Origin: Desulfoprunum sp.
Lineage (GTDB): Bacteria; Desulfobacterota; Desulfobulbia; Desulfobulbales; Desulfocapsaceae
Assembly (NCBI GenBank): GCA_030696435.1
Contig: JAUYSF010000066.1
Coordinates: forward strand, 1-22,032
Direction: 5' to 3'
Length of the DNA: 22,032 bases
Of the stretch, positions 4 to 11,428 are shown piece after piece. The notes below the pieces were generated by a model, which worked only from the letters and a program-made list of their open reading frames with translations, was not told the DNA's origin and searched no databases. Positions within the stretch are counted from its first letter, which is position 1, and each line of letters starts with the position of its first letter. Position numbers and translations under genes: made by a program.

Positions 4-843
4 ATGGATCTGCAATTTTCTGTCGACAAAGAGCTGTGTATCGGCTGTGGTGAGTGTGTCAACGACTGCCCTTATGCGGTGCTTGAAATGAAAGGGGACT
101 TCCCGGCAGTGGATAAAGAGCGGGAAGAGATGTGCGTGCAATGCCAGCACTGCCTTGCCGTCTGCAGCACCGGGGCTCTAAGCATTCTCGGCAAAAATCC
201 CGCTGACTCGCTGCCTTTGGAGGGTAAACTTCCCTCGGTCGAGCAGCTAGCTACCCTGATGAAGAGCCGTCGTTCCGTTCGCCGATACAAAAAGACGGCC
301 GTATCTCCTGAAGAAATTGCTTTGTTGCTGGAAACCGTGGCCTATGCCCCAACCGGTGTCAACAACCGACAGGTGCTGTTTACGATGATTGATAATCCCG
401 AGGTAATGGACAACCTCCGAAAGACGACATACGGCACCCTGGAAGCAATCATCAATAACGGCGGCCTGCCAAAGGGCATGGAGTTTTTCGAGGGGTTTGT
501 GGTTGATGCTTTGCAGAACGGCAAGGACACGATATTCCGCGGGGCGCCGCATATGTTGATCGTCTCAGCTCCCAAAGACAGTCCGTCTCCCGAGGCCGAT
601 TGCTATATCGCTCTCAACTACTTCGAGCTGCTGGCCGCCAGTATGGGACTTGGCACCCTCTGGTGTGGTCTGGCGAAATGGGCATTGACAATCATTGCTC
701 CTGAAATATTGACAAAACTCGGAGTGCCGACGTCGCACCAAGTTGGCTATATGATGCTCTTCGGCCGGCCGGCGGTAGAATACCACCGAACAGTGCAGCG
801 GGACAACACCCATGTCAATCGGGTACAGCAGATTATCTGTTAG
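4..843 (+). CDS. Ferredoxin-nitroreductase fusion protein
   Basis: This 279-residue protein joins an N-terminal bacterial ferredoxin module to a nitroreductase-family flavoprotein domain. Two CxxCxxCxxxC clusters are visible (Cys12/15/18/22 and Cys44/47/50/54), enough for two [4Fe-4S] centres. From about residue 86 the nitroreductase fold begins with an RRSVRRY motif, followed by APTGVNNRQ, which in this family contacts FMN. The family reduces nitro compounds, quinones or flavin-linked substrates; the iron-sulfur module probably feeds electrons from a low-potential donor, suiting an anaerobe. No signal peptide is seen, so it is probably cytoplasmic. The ATG at position 4 gives the complete ferredoxin motif, but the ribosome binding site lies outside the window, so the start is not proven. 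The next gene begins about 21 bases after the stop, suggesting co-transcription. The substrate is unknown. Confidence 0.9.
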   Translation: MDLQFSVDKELCIGCGECVNDCPYAVLEMKGDFPAVDKEREEMCVQCQHCLAVCSTGALSILGKNPADSLPLEGKLPSVEQLATLMKSRRSVRRYKKTAVSPEEIALLLETVAYAPTGVNNRQVLFTMIDNPEVMDNLRKTTYGTLEAIINNGGLPKGMEFFEGFVVDALQNGKDTIFRGAPHMLIVSAPKDSPSPEADCYIALNYFELLAASMGLGTLWCGLAKWALTIIAPEILTKLGVPTSHQVGYMMLFGRPAVEYHRTVQRDNTHVNRVQQIIC

Positions 844-2747: not shown

Positions 2748-3707
2748 CTAAAAGGTATACAATACCCCCAAAGTTGCAGAAAACTCATTCGCGCTATCTA
2801 CAATCGGGCTGTCTTTCACGCTGCTGCCAAGCCTGGTGTCATTGACAATTCCAACCAAAAAGAGGTTGCTGGTCAATGGGTATACTCCCATCAACTCGGC
2901 AGAGACATTGAGGGCGCTGTCAGGTGCATAGACGGGCCTGCCCACCCTGGATTCCGCCACCGAAACACCATAATAATAGTCAACGGCCTTGGCGCTCAAG
3001 TAGGTAACAGAAACACTCGGCGTGATTTCAGCACCAAAAAGCCGAAAGGGATATTTATAGGCCAATTCGATATTCTGGCCATCGTGCTCACCAGTAACAT
3101 CGTTGAGGAGCTTCAGTTCAAACTCACCCACGTCTGTCCGATAGAAGGTCGCAAGACCTGCGGCAAAAACCATATCGGGCTCTGTCATACCCTGCAGATA
3201 TCGGCTGTCTGAGGCATCGAATCCTTCAGTAAACAGCTCACCGAAAACGGCGATCCGCAACCTTTCCCCGGCAAAGACATCATAGCTGGTATTGATGCCG
3301 TCATATGCCTGCAGTTGGAACCGTTTGTTGCGGTAGACGATCGCCGGATCAATTTGTAGCTCGTCGTCTGCTCCCTTATAGACTGAGGTTTCGCTTGTTA
3401 CTCCAAAGCCCAGAGATAGACTGCCGCCAATCAGCGGCAATCCGCCCTTTTCCTCATCGGTCAGGATTTCACCGTCTTCCCGCATCTCCAAGGTGCGGTG
3501 TTCATCTTCACTTTCGATCTCGATCTTATATACCAGTTGATCGTTTTCGTGTTTCTCTTCGAAGCTTTCGATATGGCTGCCAGGATAATGCTGGCGCACG
3601 ATCTCGCTGAGTTGGGGTGGCAACCCGGCAAGACACCAGCCAGGTCCAGCTCCGACCAATATGATTGCAAAGCAACATGCTTTAAAAAGATTCTTGTGCA
3701 TTAACAT
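2748..3707 (-). CDS. PepSY-like/MipA-OmpV outer-membrane protein
   Basis: A 319-residue predicted outer-membrane protein. Residues 1-27 form a signal peptide (MHKN basic start, hydrophobic stretch, likely cut after CLA). Residues about 28-95 resemble a PepSY-like repeat: a PPQLSEIVRQHYPG helix, a VYKIEIE strand, then a DGEIL turn. From about residue 100 the MipA/OmpV beta-barrel begins, with PAIVYRNKRFQ, YYYGVSVAES, a VKDSP segment and a terminal LGVLYTF ending in aromatic Phe, as expected for barrel insertion. MipA-type proteins are scaffolds or porin-like proteins at the outer membrane; the N-terminal module is an addition to the usual layout. The frame is open upstream to 4001, but the ATG at 3707 has AGGAGG five to eight bases upstream and begins the signal peptide. 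It is divergent from the two-component genes, with an apparent regulator site about 100 bases upstream. Confidence 0.87.
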   Translation of the reverse strand: MLMHKNLFKACCFAIILVGAGPGWCLAGLPPQLSEIVRQHYPGSHIESFEEKHENDQLVYKIEIESEDEHRTLEMREDGEILTDEEKGGLPLIGGSLSLGFGVTSETSVYKGADDELQIDPAIVYRNKRFQLQAYDGINTSYDVFAGERLRIAVFGELFTEGFDASDSRYLQGMTEPDMVFAAGLATFYRTDVGEFELKLLNDVTGEHDGQNIELAYKYPFRLFGAEITPSVSVTYLSAKAVDYYYGVSVAESRVGRPVYAPDSALNVSAELMGVYPLTSNLFLVGIVNDTRLGSSVKDSPIVDSANEFSATLGVLYTF

Positions 3708-3788
3708 ACTCTCCTCCTTATGGTGGTATTTTGGATTGGCTGGCATTATTACCGCCAGCATTGATGTGGTATTTGTAGCCGTATCGAG

Positions 3789-3830
3789 GTGAAGAGAATG
3801 TTGCAGGAGTGTGAAATGTTCGTGAAATGG
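3789..3830 (-). promoter_or_regulatory. Candidate response-regulator operator, site A
   Basis: Read on the minus strand, half-sites CATTTCAC, CATTTCAC, a degenerate TGCAAC and CTCTTCAC end at 3822, 3811, 3800 and 3789, exactly 11 bases apart. Eleven bases later is the -10-like TACAAA (3777-3772), about 65 bases before the outer-membrane gene start. No good -35 box is seen, as expected for an activator-dependent promoter. The same layout precedes the gene at 6067. Direct repeats at an 11-base period are typical of OmpR/PhoB-family binding; the cognate regulator is probably the adjacent one at 3919-4605. Confidence 0.66.
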
Positions 3831-3918
3831 AAGAAAACTGTTGGTCGAAAGGAAATAAAACTGCTTAACTTTGAGCAGTCGAGAAGAGTGTGGCTTTTCC
3901 CTCCAACAAAAAACGCCG

Positions 3919-4605
3919 ATGAAAGCAGATACACCACTTCGCATTCTGGTTATTGAAGACAATAAGGACCTTGCCGGGAATATCACCGATTTTCTCAGCA
4001 TGCAGGGTCATGAAGTCGATTATGCCATGGACGGTATCACCGGCCTGCACCTGGCCTTGAACCTGCCCCTCGACATCATCGTCCTCGATATTATGCTGCC
4101 CAAGATTGACGGGCTCTCTATCTGCCAGCGGTTTCGCAAGGAAGCCGACAAGCAGTTGCCCATCATTATGCTGACCGCCCGTGATACCCTGGATGACAAA
4201 CTCAAAGGATTTTCGTCGGGTGCGGATGATTATCTGGTTAAACCCTTTTCCCTGCGCGAACTCGAGGCCCGCATCAAGGCGCTGGCCAAGCGTTACGATA
4301 CCCCGACAATGGTTATAAGCAGAGGCGATCTCATCGTTGACTTCGGCACCCGCGAGGTTCGCCAAGGCGAGCGGCTGCTTAACCTGAACAGAATCAGCTT
4401 TGAAATACTCATTCACCTTGTCAGATCAGCCCCCAACGTGGTGACTAGGGATTTTCTGGAGGATAAGCTTTGGGGGGGATTCCTGCCGGGCAGCGACGCA
4501 CTTCGCAGTCATATCTATAGCCTTCGCAAAGAACTCGACAATGGGGCAGTCAACTCATGGATCGAGACGGTTCGCGGTGTCGGCTACCGACTCATTGAGA
4601 GATAA
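3919..4605 (+). CDS. OmpR-family response regulator
   Basis: A 228-residue two-domain regulator. The receiver domain (about 1-120) has acidic Glu13/Asp14, phospho-acceptor Asp57 in IIVLDIMLP, Thr86 in IIMLTAR and Lys108 in YLVKPF. The C-terminal winged-helix domain (about 130-228) ends with the IETVRGVGYRL signature of OmpR/PhoB regulators. It should be phosphorylated by the kinase that starts four bases after its stop, and bind DNA as a head-to-tail dimer on direct repeats. A TTG at 3871 would add 16 unconserved residues; the ATG at 3919 fits the family, although its ribosome binding site is weak. Promoter sites at 3789-3830 and 5935-5974 are its probable targets. Confidence 0.95.
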   Translation: MKADTPLRILVIEDNKDLAGNITDFLSMQGHEVDYAMDGITGLHLALNLPLDIIVLDIMLPKIDGLSICQRFRKEADKQLPIIMLTARDTLDDKLKGFSSGADDYLVKPFSLRELEARIKALAKRYDTPTMVISRGDLIVDFGTREVRQGERLLNLNRISFEILIHLVRSAPNVVTRDFLEDKLWGGFLPGSDALRSHIYSLRKELDNGAVNSWIETVRGVGYRLIER

Positions 4606-4609
4606 GGCC

Positions 4610-5863
4610 GTGCTGAGTCTGAAATCACGTATAATTGCCACACTCTGCCTGTTCAGCCTGTTGCTCAGCTTGGTCTTTGCGGGTATTGCCATCCTGGTCA
4701 GTGTTGCCTCGCAGGATTATGTATTCAATAACGCCGTGCGCCACGTTACAGATCAGGTCATGCACAATTATCTTGAGAACCAGACGCTTCATGACAAACA
4801 TATGCCACCCGAGGTACGCTCTTATGTTGGCCTCGACGGCCTCTCTCAAGATGAGATCATCAAATTCCGTTTGGAAACACTTCCCGACGGCATCCACAAG
4901 GCGATTGCCCCCATCAAGGTTCACTATAGTATCACCTCAATTCCCGGGTTGGATAAAAAACTCTATGTCTTCATGGATGTCCATGAATTCGAATTTGAAT
5001 TCGACCAGGACAAGCTGCTTATCCTGGCGCTACAGTTTGGCATCCCGGCGCTGTTGACCTCGCTCGTCGGGGCGCTGATCGGCTTGATTCTGGCCAAGCA
5101 TATCATCAGCCCGGTCAGGAGGCTGGCTGACAAGGTTATGAAAACACGCCCTGAGAACCTCATTGTCGATTTTTCAGCCAGGTTCGCCGACGATGAGATC
5201 GGTAATCTTGCCAGAAGCATTGAAGCGACCCTGCATCGGCTTGCCCGATTCATTGCCCGGGAACAGGAATTTACCCGCAATGTCAGCCATGAACTGCGAA
5301 CGCCGCTGGCGGTGATAAAAAACGGCTCGGAACTGCTGCGAAGCAACACTGCCAGCAGCGATACCTGGCTGTGCCGTCCTCTCGACAGGATTGATCGGGC
5401 TGTGGCGGAGATGGAACAACTGGTCGAGACTTTTCTCTTTCTCGCCCGGGAAAAGGATCTCAGTGCCAGAAGCCAGTCATGCGATATCTATGATAAGGTG
5501 ACCCATCTCCTGAACAGATATGATTTTCTTCTCCAGGGCCGCAATGTCGTTTGCACTGTGCGGGAAAGTGGCCGGCCGCAGGTCAATGTTGCGCCCGAGG
5601 TTCTTGACATCATACTGGGCAACTGCATCAGAAATGCCTTCCAGTACACCGAAAGCGGTGAGGTCAAAGTCGAGATCGATCCGCAATGCATCACCATGAC
5701 CAATGATATCGGCCAGGATTCAGGCATGGGAAATGATCGTGCCAATACCGGTATCGGCCATTCGATCACCTCAAAGCTCTGTGAGCGTCTTGGCTGGATC
5801 TTTACTTTTGAGGCCAAAACGGACAAGGCAAGGGCAGTTATCTGCTATTCCGCCGACCGATAG
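4610..5863 (+). CDS. Membrane sensor histidine kinase
   Basis: A 417-residue kinase starting at GTG, four bases after the regulator stop. Transmembrane segment 1 (about 8-31) and segment 2 (about 136-163) bracket a roughly 100-residue periplasmic sensor region with no recognised domain, including an acidic EFEFEFDQD stretch just before segment 2. A HAMP linker (about 160-215) leads to the HisKA box NVSHELRTPL with phospho-acceptor His227. The ATPase domain has an N box (NCIRNAFQY), and later NDIG and GIGHSI glycine motifs. The G1/D box is less canonical than usual, but the essential Asp-x-Gly remains. An upstream in-frame ATG at 4541 lies inside the regulator gene and lacks support. The input signal is unknown; context points to an envelope stimulus. 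Confidence 0.93.
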   Translation: MLSLKSRIIATLCLFSLLLSLVFAGIAILVSVASQDYVFNNAVRHVTDQVMHNYLENQTLHDKHMPPEVRSYVGLDGLSQDEIIKFRLETLPDGIHKAIAPIKVHYSITSIPGLDKKLYVFMDVHEFEFEFDQDKLLILALQFGIPALLTSLVGALIGLILAKHIISPVRRLADKVMKTRPENLIVDFSARFADDEIGNLARSIEATLHRLARFIAREQEFTRNVSHELRTPLAVIKNGSELLRSNTASSDTWLCRPLDRIDRAVAEMEQLVETFLFLAREKDLSARSQSCDIYDKVTHLLNRYDFLLQGRNVVCTVRESGRPQVNVAPEVLDIILGNCIRNAFQYTESGEVKVEIDPQCITMTNDIGQDSGMGNDRANTGIGHSITSKLCERLGWIFTFEAKTDKARAVICYSADR

Positions 5864-5934
5864 TTACCCCCCCAAACCTCAGCCTCGCCGTTTTTTAGCA
5901 TTGCTGCTGCCAATGCTTCGCCTCCTCTAGATCT

Positions 5935-5991
5935 ATTTCACAAAAAATTCACATCTAAGCGACGTAGTCTTCACCTGGCCTCAGCTATTCT
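5935..5991 (+). promoter_or_regulatory. Candidate response-regulator operator and promoter, site B
   Basis: Half-sites ATTTCAC, AATTCAC, a degenerate AAGCGAC and TCTTCAC end at 5941, 5952, 5963 and 5974, again exactly 11 bases apart. Eleven bases later is the -10-like TATTCT (5986-5991), 75 bases before the ATG at 6067. The fourth half-site and its flank (CTTCACCT) match site A. The region also ends the two-component operon. The identical spacing, down to the degenerate third turn and the distance to -10, argues that one regulator uses both sites. Confidence 0.66.
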
Positions 5992-6066: not shown

Positions 6067-7209
6067 ATGGTGGACAATTGCAATCAAACCGAATTACTCA
6101 GAAAGGCCTCATTATGGCTGACCTTTGGTTTCTATTTCTTGATAGCCTTCGAGTTCTTTTACATGATCAGCCCCTTTGCCGTCTATCTCTACTCGGTATA
6201 CGGTCCAGGTTTGGAATTATTCGCCCGATACCAGGCGACCAATTGGCTTAACATTACCTTTCTGCCCCACGTGGTGATGGATACTCATTCGATATTTCTC
6301 AATAATGTGGTCAAAATCGGCCTATTGCTGTTCTCTTTCGGCCTGCTGCTCTTCTTTGTTGGAGCAGGTCAGATCTACTGGGGAAAGTTGAGACGGAAAG
6401 CGGCTGTCTGCGAAGGGCTCTATTTTTTGGTCCGTCATCCACAGTATAGCGCACTGATGTTCGCTGGTTTTGGGATGCTGTTGCTGTGGCCCCGTTATAT
6501 TGTCCTGGTCTCCTACGTCTCCATGCTCTTCATCTATGTCCTATTGGCCCGATTCGAAGAAAAGGAATGCCTGCGTAAATTCGGCAGCAGTTACCGGAAA
6601 TATCACATCCGGACCCCTATGTTTTTCCCGCTCTTCAACGCACCTGCAGATAGAAAGGCTAGATCGTGCAGGCTTTTCGGAAAAATTGGGAGATACACAG
6701 CGATGTACGTCCTGGTGATGAGCACGGCTATACTTGGCGCCAGTTCGATACAGAGTTGGGCTCTCAATCAGCTCTATGCCGAGTTCAGACAAGACTCGGT
6801 CAATATTTCGGCGCAGGCCCTCGACCCGGAAGTAATCAATGCCATGCTGGCGCTTGCCCTCGACAATCAGCAGGCTCGCCGGCTTATTGCCCGCGGTGGG
6901 GAGAAACAAAAATATATCAACTACATTGTGCCGATCAACTGGAGCGCCAGCGAAATCCCCATGCGACAGGTTGTCAGCCAGGAGCACTTTAATTTCGACC
7001 AGAATGATACTCGTGAACGTTACAAAATCATCATCACCCGGGCTGTGCTCTCCGACCCGAATGCCACCGGCAAGGAGATAGTGGGGGCCACCAGACAGCG
7101 GATTCCACTGGCTGAAGTCACCATCGATTTTCACACCAAAGAGGTGCTGGATGTCCAGGGACCAGCGACGGAGGGTGGCATCAGCGGCATTCCCCTACCT
7201 ATGTTTTAG
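6067..7209 (+). CDS. Membrane methyltransferase-family protein with periplasmic extension
   Basis: A 380-residue multi-spanning protein. The N-terminal half (about 1-190) resembles isoprenylcysteine carboxyl methyltransferase/phospholipid methyltransferase-like membrane proteins: hydrophobic segments at about 13-38, 80-105 and 125-160, a VRHPQY motif (Arg123-Tyr127), then FEEKECLRKFGSSYRKY (Glu164/Glu165), the usual cofactor-site region. A further transmembrane helix at about 210-235 leads to a roughly 145-residue soluble tail I cannot assign, probably periplasmic, containing YIVPINW and ending in PLPMF. The AdoMet-dependent activity is inferred from family motifs only; the substrate could be a lipid or a small envelope molecule. 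AGGAGGAAGG precedes the ATG at good spacing. Its promoter carries the site B half-site array, linking it to the adjacent two-component system. Confidence 0.8.
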   Translation: MVDNCNQTELLRKASLWLTFGFYFLIAFEFFYMISPFAVYLYSVYGPGLELFARYQATNWLNITFLPHVVMDTHSIFLNNVVKIGLLLFSFGLLLFFVGAGQIYWGKLRRKAAVCEGLYFLVRHPQYSALMFAGFGMLLLWPRYIVLVSYVSMLFIYVLLARFEEKECLRKFGSSYRKYHIRTPMFFPLFNAPADRKARSCRLFGKIGRYTAMYVLVMSTAILGASSIQSWALNQLYAEFRQDSVNISAQALDPEVINAMLALALDNQQARRLIARGGEKQKYINYIVPINWSASEIPMRQVVSQEHFNFDQNDTRERYKIIITRAVLSDPNATGKEIVGATRQRIPLAEVTIDFHTKEVLDVQGPATEGGISGIPLPMF

Positions 7210-7296
7210 ACATAATGGCGGTCGCAGCCTGCTGCTTATCCATCTGGATCAGAAACGATTACAACTCATTAATCAGACTCTATCATACATATTTTT

Positions 7297-7530
7297 ATGC
7301 GATCAATGATGATGGCAGCCGCCAAGACTCTTTTTCTTGCCCAGGGAGTTAAAAACACTTCGTTCACCGATATCGCAAGCCTGGTGCATATCCCCGAACA
7401 AGATTGTCTCTGTTTCTTTTCCTCAACGGACGAAATACTTGAAGAATTGTGGTCAAACGGGATAAATTCACCAACCATGGTGCACGATTGTGCCACCCAG
7501 CCCACCTCATTTGATCATAAGGCAAGATAA
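7297..7530 (+). CDS. TetR-like HTH-only protein or fragment
   Basis: A 77-residue frame whose residues about 7-55 match the TetR N-terminal DNA-binding pattern: AAKTLFLAQGVKNTSF, then TDIASLVHIP, then a FFSSTDEILEELW segment in place of the usual YYHFxSKDELL. The roughly 130-residue ligand-binding and dimerisation domain is missing. The recognition helix is also atypical (two Cys around the usual Tyr). Four closely spaced ATGs (7297, 7306, 7309, 7312) leave the start open, and no clear ribosome binding site is present. The stop is two bases before the MBL-hydrolase start, so translation could be coupled. It may be a decayed regulator remnant or a minimal DNA-binding protein; the remnant is more likely. 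Confidence 0.5.
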   Translation: MRSMMMAAAKTLFLAQGVKNTSFTDIASLVHIPEQDCLCFFSSTDEILEELWSNGINSPTMVHDCATQPTSFDHKAR

Positions 7531-7532
7531 CT

Positions 7533-8600
7533 ATGGCTCACTCTCAGAAACTCAGGAACCTGCTGGCGACAGGAATCCTTCTTGCTCTCTGTAGCGGATG
7601 CGGCGGATACCACGGGCTGAATTCTGATCATTTTGATGGAACCAGGTTTTCCATCCAGGGTGCCGATCATAGTTTTTCAGCCATGCTCAGATGGCTGTGG
7701 GAAATGGAAACAGTCCCCTGGCCGGAGTGGATTACAGATCCGAAGCAACCGCCCCCTCAGGCCGAGGAGGATGGCGGGAAGCTGCGGGTGACGTATATCA
7801 ACCATGCGACTGTTTTGATTCAGTTGGATAAGATGAACATCCTCACCGATCCGATCTGGTCCGACCGGGCAGGACCTTACAGCTGGCTGGGAGTAAAACG
7901 GGTCAGATCGCCGGGTGTGCTGTTCGAGAACCTGCCGCATATTGATCTCATTCTCCTGTCCCACGACCATTATGATCATCTCGATCTGCCTTCCCTGCGG
8001 ATGATTGCCAAAAGAGATAATCCCAAGGTGATCGCCGGTCTTGGGTTGAAATCATTGCTCAATGGCCATGGCCTTGCAATGGTCGAGGAGCTTGACTGGT
8101 GGCAGGAATATCCCCTGCCAGGCAAGAATATCGCCATTACCTTTGTGCCTGCCCTCCACAATTCGGGTCGCTTGCCTTTTATGGAAAATCGCACGCTCTG
8201 GGGCGGTTACGTCCTCACCCACCCTGATGGCAATATCTATTTTGCCGGCGATACCGGCCTTGGTGACTTCATTTATCAGATTGCCAAAAAATTTCAGCCT
8301 ATCCGGCTTACCATTCTCCCCATCGGCAACTATGAAAAGCGCTGGTTTATGAAGAATCAGCACATGAATCCAGACGATAGCCTTCGAGTCCATGAGATCC
8401 TTCGCGCCCGGCAATCCATGGGTATGCACTTTGGGACTTTTGCCGAACACCCGGAGCAGGCCATCGACGCACATGAACGTGACCTGGCCGCGGCTTTAGT
8501 CGACCATGCTCTTGCTCCTTCGGCATTCTGGATACTGGGGTTTGGTGAAAGCCGGTATGTGCCCGAGATCAAGCGAGATATAGTGACCATGCCGAAATGA
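7533..8600 (+). CDS. MBL-fold hydrolase with lipoprotein-like leader
   Basis: A 355-residue metallo-beta-lactamase-fold protein of the UlaG/NAPE-PLD-like group. It begins with a basic and hydrophobic leader ending LCSGC, a lipobox-like site with Cys23 and an imperfect -3 position, so it may be an envelope lipoprotein. The metal site is clear: INHATVLIQ, TDPIWSDRAGP, then SHDHYDHLD (His144, Asp145, His146, Asp148, His149), with further ligands likely in PALHNSGR and FAGDTG, and MHFGTF near the end. NAPE-PLD-like members cleave phosphodiester bonds in lipids, but the substrate here is not deducible. It directly follows the TetR-like fragment and precedes the SDR pseudogene. Confidence 0.88.
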   Translation: MAHSQKLRNLLATGILLALCSGCGGYHGLNSDHFDGTRFSIQGADHSFSAMLRWLWEMETVPWPEWITDPKQPPPQAEEDGGKLRVTYINHATVLIQLDKMNILTDPIWSDRAGPYSWLGVKRVRSPGVLFENLPHIDLILLSHDHYDHLDLPSLRMIAKRDNPKVIAGLGLKSLLNGHGLAMVEELDWWQEYPLPGKNIAITFVPALHNSGRLPFMENRTLWGGYVLTHPDGNIYFAGDTGLGDFIYQIAKKFQPIRLTILPIGNYEKRWFMKNQHMNPDDSLRVHEILRARQSMGMHFGTFAEHPEQAIDAHERDLAAALVDHALAPSAFWILGFGESRYVPEIKRDIVTMPK

Positions 8601-10225: not shown

Positions 10226-10252
10226 TCCGATTTTAAAGAACAGGAAGCAGTG

Positions 10253-11428
10253 ATGGAAGAAATGTTTGCCGAGCGGATCATCAATGTCCCTCGTTCGTTT
10301 ATCCGCGAGATCCTTAAGGTTTCTCTTGATCCGGCGATTATTTCTTTTGCCGGTGGCTTGCCCAATCGTGATTATTTCCCGGTCGAGGAAATCCAGGCGG
10401 CAACTCAGGGGGTGTTTTGCGACAATGGCCGGGATATTCTGCAGTACAGTAATTCAGAAGGCCTGCTCGCCTTGCGGGAGTATATCGCGGCAAGGTATCT
10501 GGCAAAAAAGGGCCTGGTCGTTTCCCCCGAAGATATCCTGATCACCAACGGCTCCCAGCAGGGGCTCGATCTCCTGGGTAAGGTCCTGATCAACACGGGA
10601 GATGCGGTGGTTATTGAAGAGCCGGGCTATCTCGGGGCCATTCAGTCGCTATCAATCTTCAGGCCAACCTTTCTGCCGGTTCCCCTTTCCGATGAGGGAA
10701 TGGAGGTCGATTCTCTGCGAGAGGTGAGTGCCGGGAAGGGCGTCAAATTCCTCTACGCGGTTCCCAACTTCCAGAATCCCTCGGGGATTACCTATTCCAA
10801 CAGCAACAGGCTACAGGTTGCGGAGGTGGCCGCCGACGAGGGTTTTCTGCTCGTCGAAGATGATCCGTACGGAGAGTTGCGCTTTTCCGGTGCAGATCAG
10901 CAGTCGTTTTACAGCCTGCTGCCGAAACAGACGATCCTGTTGGGCTCGTTCTCCAAGATTGTGGCACCGGGATTCAGGCTCGGCTGGATTGTCGCCTCGG
11001 GAAAAATCAGGGAGAAGCTCCTGGTGGCCAAGCAGGCCGCCGACCTGCACACCTCGGGATTTGCCCAGCATATTCTCAATCGATATCTGCAGGACAACGA
11101 TATTGACCGGCACATCGCCCGGATTATCACGGCCTATGGCGGTCAGTGCCAGGCCATGGTTGACAGTATCGCCCGACACCTGCCGGGTGATATAAGCTGG
11201 ACTCGGCCTGAGGGAGGCATGTTTCTCTGGGGTAGATTGCCGGGGGAGATGAGCTCGATGAAGTTGTTTGACCTTGCCGTGCAGGAGAAGGTGGTCTTCG
11301 TGCCGGGAGACCCTTTCTATACGACCACGACTGAAGTACCGACTCTGCGGCTGAATTTCTCCTGCGCCGATGGCGAAACGATCGAAAGGGGCGTCCGGCG
11401 TCTGGCCCGGGCTTTGGCAAAGATGTAG
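10253..11428 (+). CDS. PLP-dependent class I/II aminotransferase
   Basis: A 391-residue fold-type I aminotransferase resembling the 2-aminoadipate/aromatic aminotransferase (LysN/AroAT-like) group, without the GntR domain of MocR regulators. It shows the opening PAIISFAGGLPN, TNGSQQGLDL for phosphate binding, PNFQNPSGIT, the EDDPYGELRF pocket, and the PLP-binding Lys235 in GSFSKIVAPGFRLGW. The C-terminal LRLNFSC supplies the substrate-carboxylate Arg. It transfers amino groups between amino acids and 2-oxo acids; exact substrate is not determined. GTG at 10250 and ATG at 10253 are both possible, and AGGAAG favours the ATG. It is convergent with folE2, with only 25 bases between them. Confidence 0.93.
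   Translation: MEEMFAERIINVPRSFIREILKVSLDPAIISFAGGLPNRDYFPVEEIQAATQGVFCDNGRDILQYSNSEGLLALREYIAARYLAKKGLVVSPEDILITNGSQQGLDLLGKVLINTGDAVVIEEPGYLGAIQSLSIFRPTFLPVPLSDEGMEVDSLREVSAGKGVKFLYAVPNFQNPSGITYSNSNRLQVAEVAADEGFLLVEDDPYGELRFSGADQQSFYSLLPKQTILLGSFSKIVAPGFRLGWIVASGKIREKLLVAKQAADLHTSGFAQHILNRYLQDNDIDRHIARIITAYGGQCQAMVDSIARHLPGDISWTRPEGGMFLWGRLPGEMSSMKLFDLAVQEKVVFVPGDPFYTTTTEVPTLRLNFSCADGETIERGVRRLARALAKM

Follow-up and report, generated by a model that had tools for sequence, protein, structure and literature searches.

A ColR-like two-component system and two probable target promoters of matching four-unit layout in Desulfoprunum

The window analysed in this work, a stretch of 22,032 nucleotides that makes up one whole contig of a Desulfoprunum sp. 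assembly (93% complete, 494 contigs), in all likelihood holds a ColR-like two-component system together with two of its target promoters, activated by the phosphorylated regulator. The regulator and its matching pair of operators very probably form a genuine switch, of a type that is already known. This reading draws on the operators and their spacing, on their rarity, on the position of the -10 elements and the absence of a -35 match, and on the conservation of the layout with the regulator, all of which are properties of the DNA itself. The features concerned are the following.

2748..3707, minus strand: mipA-like gene, whose product has a MipA/OmpV outer-membrane domain (PF06629, 146.8 bits) and a weak N-terminal PepSY match
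3772..3777, minus strand: putative -10 element of the mipA-like gene, TACAAA, 11 bases past the fourth unit of operator A (position conserved in 27 arrays)
3789..3826, minus strand: operator A, four TTCAC-type units at 11-base steps, the third GCAAC, directed toward mipA (direct reading)
3919..4605, plus strand: gene of a ColR-like response regulator of 228 aa (PF00072, PF00486; position in the ColR clade; 48% identical to the Pseudomonas-type ColR)
4610..5863, plus strand: gene of a sensor histidine kinase (HisKA, 50.2 bits) of 417 aa from the GTG at 4610, or 440 aa if it starts from the ATG at 4541
5937..5974, plus strand: operator B, four TTCAC-type units at 11-base steps, the third GCGAC, directed toward the methyltransferase gene (direct reading)
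5986..5991, plus strand: putative -10 element of the methyltransferase gene, TATTCT, 11 bases past the fourth unit of operator B (position conserved in 27 arrays)
6067..7209, plus strand: gene of an ICMT/PEMT-like membrane methyltransferase of 380 aa with an extra C-terminal part (domain matches under cut-off; homologue in genome G749)
7533..8600, plus strand: gene of a metallo-beta-lactamase-fold hydrolase (PF12706, 132.5 bits), probable partner gene of the methyltransferase

On the minus strand, operator A reads TTCAC GAACAT TTCAC ACTCCT GCAAC ATTCTC TTCAC, with units ending at 3822, 3811, 3800 and 3789, and on the plus strand operator B reads TTCAC AAAAAA TTCAC ATCTAA GCGAC GTAGTC TTCAC, with units ending at 5941, 5952, 5963 and 5974. 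An earlier note on this DNA had described TTCAC-like half-sites at exact 11-base steps, followed 11 bases after the fourth unit by the -10-like TACAAA or TATTCT, and direct reading confirmed both the coordinates of the half-sites and the placing of the -10-like elements. The best four-unit scores upstream of the two genes, 17 and 18, are obtained at step 11, and no other step between 7 and 16 gives more than 14. The unit bases of A and B are identical at 19 of 20 positions, those around and between the units at 30 of 78. Given this low agreement outside the units, leftover duplication is unlikely to be the origin of the likeness and we rejected it, in line with what the note had concluded from the differing flanks. 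Two further traits it had pointed out hold for A and B but do not extend to the group. A third unit as divergent as GCAAC or GCGAC occurs, among the 27 arrays described below, only in the window sites and in L024, the locus of a related genome, and the fourth-unit CTTCACCT shared by A and B is missing in L024.

The operators are rare in the genome. The three-unit pattern TTCACN6TTCACN17TTCAC, with up to two mismatches, has exactly two matches in the window, A and B, against a mean of 0.06 and a maximum of 1 in 100 shuffles; in the whole assembly it has seven, and the pattern read backwards, which served as control, has two. Many genomic matches of equal quality, which the earlier note had named as evidence against its proposal, were not seen with this pattern: A and B alone are perfect in the 3,822,993-base assembly. 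Among 257 genomes of the window's order, five hold perfect matches, at seven sites, and the control gave 0 among the matches listed. Two of these sites belong to the window genome, one to G020, two identical ones to G015, one to G023 and one to G194. One of the G015 sites adjoins a CreB gene cluster, the G023 site sits in a simple 11-base tandem repeat, and the G194 site sits in a gap between open reading frames of the other strand. In the 25 regulator loci presented below, the stretches upstream of mechanically called open reading frames of at least 250 aa fall into two groups, 12 of 216 scoring 18-20 and the other 204 at most 15. Lastly, for nine mipA/pepSY and methyltransferase promoters the observed score was never reached by shuffles (1000 each).

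As the earlier note had proposed, the regulator encoded between the operators is an OmpR/PhoB-family response regulator, in which both the receiver domain (PF00072, 91.7 bits) and the winged-helix Trans_reg_C domain (PF00486, 58.6 bits) were found above their cut-offs. In a tree built by a quick method, without bootstrap, it falls in a clade with the Pseudomonas-type ColR (61 rows, SH-aLRT 99), apart from CreB, PhoB, QseB and BasR. We identified the Pseudomonas-type ColR from its gene order (PMC2689224) and from the Pfam assignment of the next two genes past the kinase, not from a record name. At locus L209, the regulator of which is 48% identical to that of the window, the order regulator, kinase, methyltransferase and LPS kinase (Pfam families confirmed) is as in the published colR-colS order, and an array followed at 11 bases by TATCGT lies ahead of the methyltransferase gene. 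As for the window kinase, it has a SHELRTP box and a HAMP match of 23.4 bits, under the cut-off of 25. No ExxE motif is present within its first 170 residues; as this periplasmic metal-binding motif is reported for the ColS/VgrS kinases, the signal of the window kinase may differ from that of ColS. Its ATP-binding part (5500-5863) is degenerate, having no HATPase_c match in Pfam and, in TNDIGQ, an unusual G1 box. Judged by eye, the D-x-G box seems to be missing altogether from the L024 kinase.

The half-site itself is already known, both as the ColR box and as the cre/blr tag. In Pseudomonas putida, the footprinted ColR sites listed by Kivistik and colleagues in their Table 1 (PMC2689224) are described by them as two direct repeats with the core (T/C)(T/C)NA(C/G)NN(T/C)TTTTT(C/G)AC. 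When reread here, these published sites (PMC2689224) consist of units of the form TTCAC, TTGAC or TCAAC that follow one another mostly in 11-base steps, with one 10-base step as well in PP0900. The same paper describes the activation by ColR of PP0903, the methyltransferase gene right behind colRS, which is followed by an LPS kinase gene and the promoter of which was footprinted (PMC2689224). The window thus resembles the ColR-ColS system of P. putida in the clade of its regulator, in the half-site at 11-base steps, in the methyltransferase target directly behind the kinase gene and in having envelope-related targets. It differs in that its sites have four units and no T-tract, whereas the paper has two repeats and a T-tract, in that its targets are mipA and a methyltransferase of the PEMT/ICMT family, whereas the Pseudomonas-type enzyme belongs to Methyltransf_25/11, and in that its kinase lacks the ExxE of ColS. 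By our own count, A has three and B four mismatches to the 16-base core, in the T-tract, which is why we file the regulator as ColR-like and not as ColR itself. The mipA site of G412, a relative of the same phylum, matches the 16-base core exactly (TTCACGTTTTTTTGAC), and TT[C/G]AC half-sites at 11-base steps were found in target promoters in 24 of the 25 loci of the window's group.

The pho box of Escherichia coli pstS, a PhoB-activated promoter, is laid out in a similar manner, with four direct repeats at 11-base steps, a degenerate third one and then a possible -10, TATTTT, by our own assignment. However, the half-site is TGTCA instead of TTCAC, and the distance to TATTTT is 10 bases by our own count instead of 11. 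The window regulator is also distinct from PhoB, reaching 160.3 bits where the NCBIfam PhoB equivalog has its cut-off at 296.2.

A regulator search at E <= 1e-62 in 395 genomes drawn evenly across the phylum matched only the window genome and G412, and a search at E <= 1e-60 in 291 genomes of the order of G412 gave 23 regulators in 22 genomes (G412 included). These 23 regulators, with those of the window and of G020, form our set of 25 loci in 24 genomes. G020, which belongs to the same family as the window assembly, provides the closest regulator with DNA context (locus L024, 63% identical); closer ones (81, 71, 69% identity and so on) are found in the protein database without surrounding DNA. 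Four TT[C/G]AC units at 11-base steps score at least 17 of 20 at 42 positions in the 396,214 bases of the 25 loci, and the reversed motif does so at three. Fifteen rows were dropped, 14 of them as overlapping registers of the same arrays and one, in L164, as an inverted copy. The 27 arrays that remain come from related regulators and genomes, some of them incomplete, and are not independent samples. At least one array is present in 24 of the 25 loci with close relatives of the regulator; in the 25th, L163 of G792, the kinase gene is immediately followed by a run of N, so that this place is uninformative. The presence of arrays at these loci, mostly with a TANNNT-like element at 11 bases, supports the central proposal of the earlier note, that the arrays are operators of the regulator encoded between them. 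At L024, a pepSY-mipA-efflux gene set is divergent from the regulator gene and a perfect array lies ahead of pepSY, with a degenerate third unit and a -10-like TAGAGT 11 bases past the array. In L164, the array that precedes pepSY is repeated without change, in inverted orientation, some 300 bases away (40-77, minus strand, and 376-413, plus strand).

Farther from the window, six loci of relatives with 39-48% identity (L011, L025, L104-L107) have no four-TTCAC array at a score of at least 16. In the 29 gamma-proteobacterial loci, of about 3.6 kb each, arrays scoring at least 17 are present in five (L182, L183, L187, L190 and L199), three of which have TA at the 11-base distance (L182, L183 and L187). 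No array was found in the other 24, nor in two stretches, one of which is 15 kb long, around a Marinomonas regulator. Either promoters were missed in these array-free stretches or the layout is not general there, which counts against a claim for all gamma-proteobacterial members.

The -10 element played no part in choosing the 27 arrays. All of them have an A 13 bases behind the fourth unit; base 12 is a T in 23 and a C in four, and the base four past the conserved A is a T in 20 and another base in seven. At the two window sites, a consensus scan detected no sigma-70 promoter and no -35 match. The lack of an ordinary sigma-70 promoter at A and B is expected of activator-dependent promoters, and the fixed distance combined with the missing -35 is what one would expect if the bound regulator held sigma-70 in place. 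Just ahead of their start codons, the mipA-like and methyltransferase genes both have a Shine-Dalgarno-like AGGAGG.

The genes behind the 27 arrays are of several kinds: mipA/pepSY genes (seven), efflux operons (eight), Rieske protein genes (eight), ICMT-like methyltransferase genes (two, in the window and G749), the regulator gene itself (one) and the gene of a DUF2860 protein (one, identified by PF11059). Of the eight efflux target genes, seven encode HlyD-type adaptors and the eighth an outer-membrane efflux protein, each above a Pfam cut-off, and RND pump genes are present in these regions; the Rieske targets are above the PF00355 cut-off in all eight cases. On the tree, the mipA-linked regulators form one clade of seven rows (SH-aLRT 98), the efflux-linked ones a group of eight (93), and the Rieske-linked ones, together with the uninformative G792, a group of nine (92). 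The target classes follow the regulator subclades, and it thus appears that the layout and half-site stay while the targets change with the subclade. G749 shares the methyltransferase target of the window, yet its regulator branches outside the window's subclade. We lean towards the view that the ColR-like regulators of Desulfobacterota and of at least some gamma-proteobacteria share one fixed promoter grammar (four TT[C/G]AC units, 11-base steps, N11, TANNNT, no -35), with the genes under its control swapped between subclades. If this is true, the sequence by itself could suffice to read out regulons, and the sharing of the half-site with the separate CreB family would make cross-regulation possible in genomes that hold both.

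In the mechanism that we envisage, the kinase would phosphorylate the regulator, which would bind as two tandem head-to-tail dimers to the four TTCAC-type units, all of them lying on the same face of the helix. The bound regulator would replace the missing -35 and recruit sigma-70 polymerase to the -10 set 11 bases behind the last unit, thereby switching on mipA at one side and the ICMT-like methyltransferase gene at the other. The kinds of targets suggest an envelope or antimicrobial stress type of signal.

Half-sites of just five bases, and a third unit that is degenerate in both window sites, might suggest that the arrays are a chance or non-functional resemblance. This is contradicted by the shuffle and genome controls and by the conservation of the array in 24 of the 25 regulator loci; we rejected chance on the basis of the shuffles, the other step lengths and the reversed motif, and hold it to be extremely improbable. 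The sign of control is not certain, as ColR is reported to repress at least one P. putida gene (PMC2689224). The regulator might bind both sites and act as a repressor, the fourth unit being inside a would-be -35/-10 spacer and blocking polymerase. This unit does lie 11 bases ahead of the -10 element, and one of the seven P. putida ColR targets newly found in the published work is negatively regulated (PMC2689224). However, there is no -35 match to repress at either site. Fixed spacing is typical of activator-polymerase contact, and the layout of four units resembles that of the PhoB-activated pstS promoter of E. coli. ColR also acts as an activator at PP0903 (PMC2689224). Repression thus seems very unlikely to us, and we favour activation by the phosphorylated regulator.

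Whether that regulator is the main binder can also be asked, since a CreB is encoded elsewhere in the genome (G000:C19:2288-2983) and might occupy A and B in its place. The two-unit tag TTCACN6TTCAC, identical in the window, is published as the cre/blr tag of CreB/BlrA (PMC4689548, PMC3660660). With 309.9 bits, the C19 regulator exceeds the NCBIfam cut-off for CreB (273 bits), and its kinase gene is directly followed by an array with 19 of 20 unit bases. A close CreB is present in the window genome (G000), G020 and G015, the three checked of the five perfect-array genomes. In contrast, the window regulator reaches 136.2 bits against the same equivalog cut-off of 273, is 33% identical to E. coli CreB and branches apart from it on the tree. 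CreB-like proteins (E <= 1e-52) were sought in 23 genomes with a window-type regulator, namely G020 and 22 genomes of the order of G412. Ten have one; in the 13 where none was found, of which nine are at least 90% complete, the array is retained at the regulator locus in every case. In five of these 13, the search scored only the best 125 first-look candidates. Likewise, G412 has no CreB-like protein of more than 40% identity and yet keeps its mipA array. Furthermore, the arrays adjoin ColR-like genes, and the targets follow the tree of the ColR-like regulator. As arrays are kept in 13 of 13 genomes where no CreB was found, CreB is not needed to explain them, and mainly on this ground we rejected it as sole binder. 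We consider CreB an unlikely main binder of A and B, the ColR-like regulator being preferred, and CreB may cross-bind arrays where both regulators exist.

Some observations on the CreB family may be added here. The CreB-CreC-like pair of the window genome (G000:C19:2288-4485, locus L115), with its four-unit TTCAC array (19/20) directly behind the kinase gene, has TATTCT just 10 bases past the last unit. The clusters around the CreB-like regulators of L116 (4842-8667) and L129 (5020-9914) include genes for a protein with VIT/VWA domains and for a membrane protein resembling exosortases. In L116, the VIT and VWA matches exceed their Pfam cut-offs, the exosortase match is under its own, and a four-unit array lies ahead of the VIT gene; the cluster genes of L129 were judged by eye.

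Our study provides a testable promoter code for a group of regulators to which our searches attached no specific name. It suggests that a MipA/OmpV protein and an ICMT-like methyltransferase are linked with efflux pumps and Rieske proteins through a single kind of two-component system, and it points to a genome in which two regulator families, ColR-like and CreB, have the same half-site, so that binding is directly measurable there. A literature check, which was incomplete and supports no claim of absence from print, returned no paper on a response regulator binding motif together with MipA in sulfate reducers.

As for the flanking genes, the PepSY match of the mipA-like gene amounts to 19.1 bits, under its cut-off of 24. 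The window methyltransferase matches NCBIfam isopcys_mtase at 40.2 bits and Pfam PEMT at 23.4 bits, both under cut-off; its homologue at the G749 regulator locus, 30% identical over nearly the full length, has PEMT and ICMT matches above the cut-offs. The hydrolase gene has no array of its own in 7101-7540 on the plus strand. At locus L172 of G749, the hydrolase and methyltransferase genes are divergent. The hydrolase gene there, the product of which is 56% identical to that of the window, has a two-unit site of its own, TTCACATGTTTTTCAC, followed after 11 bases by TAGACT. The methyltransferase and hydrolase genes are thus neighbours in two distant genomes (window 6067-8600; L172 13401-15848), in differing orientation. 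Farther along the window, 10250-11428 encodes an aminotransferase-like protein of 392 aa, the best NCBIfam match of which is the C-terminal part of the MocR-type PdxR, from model position 92.
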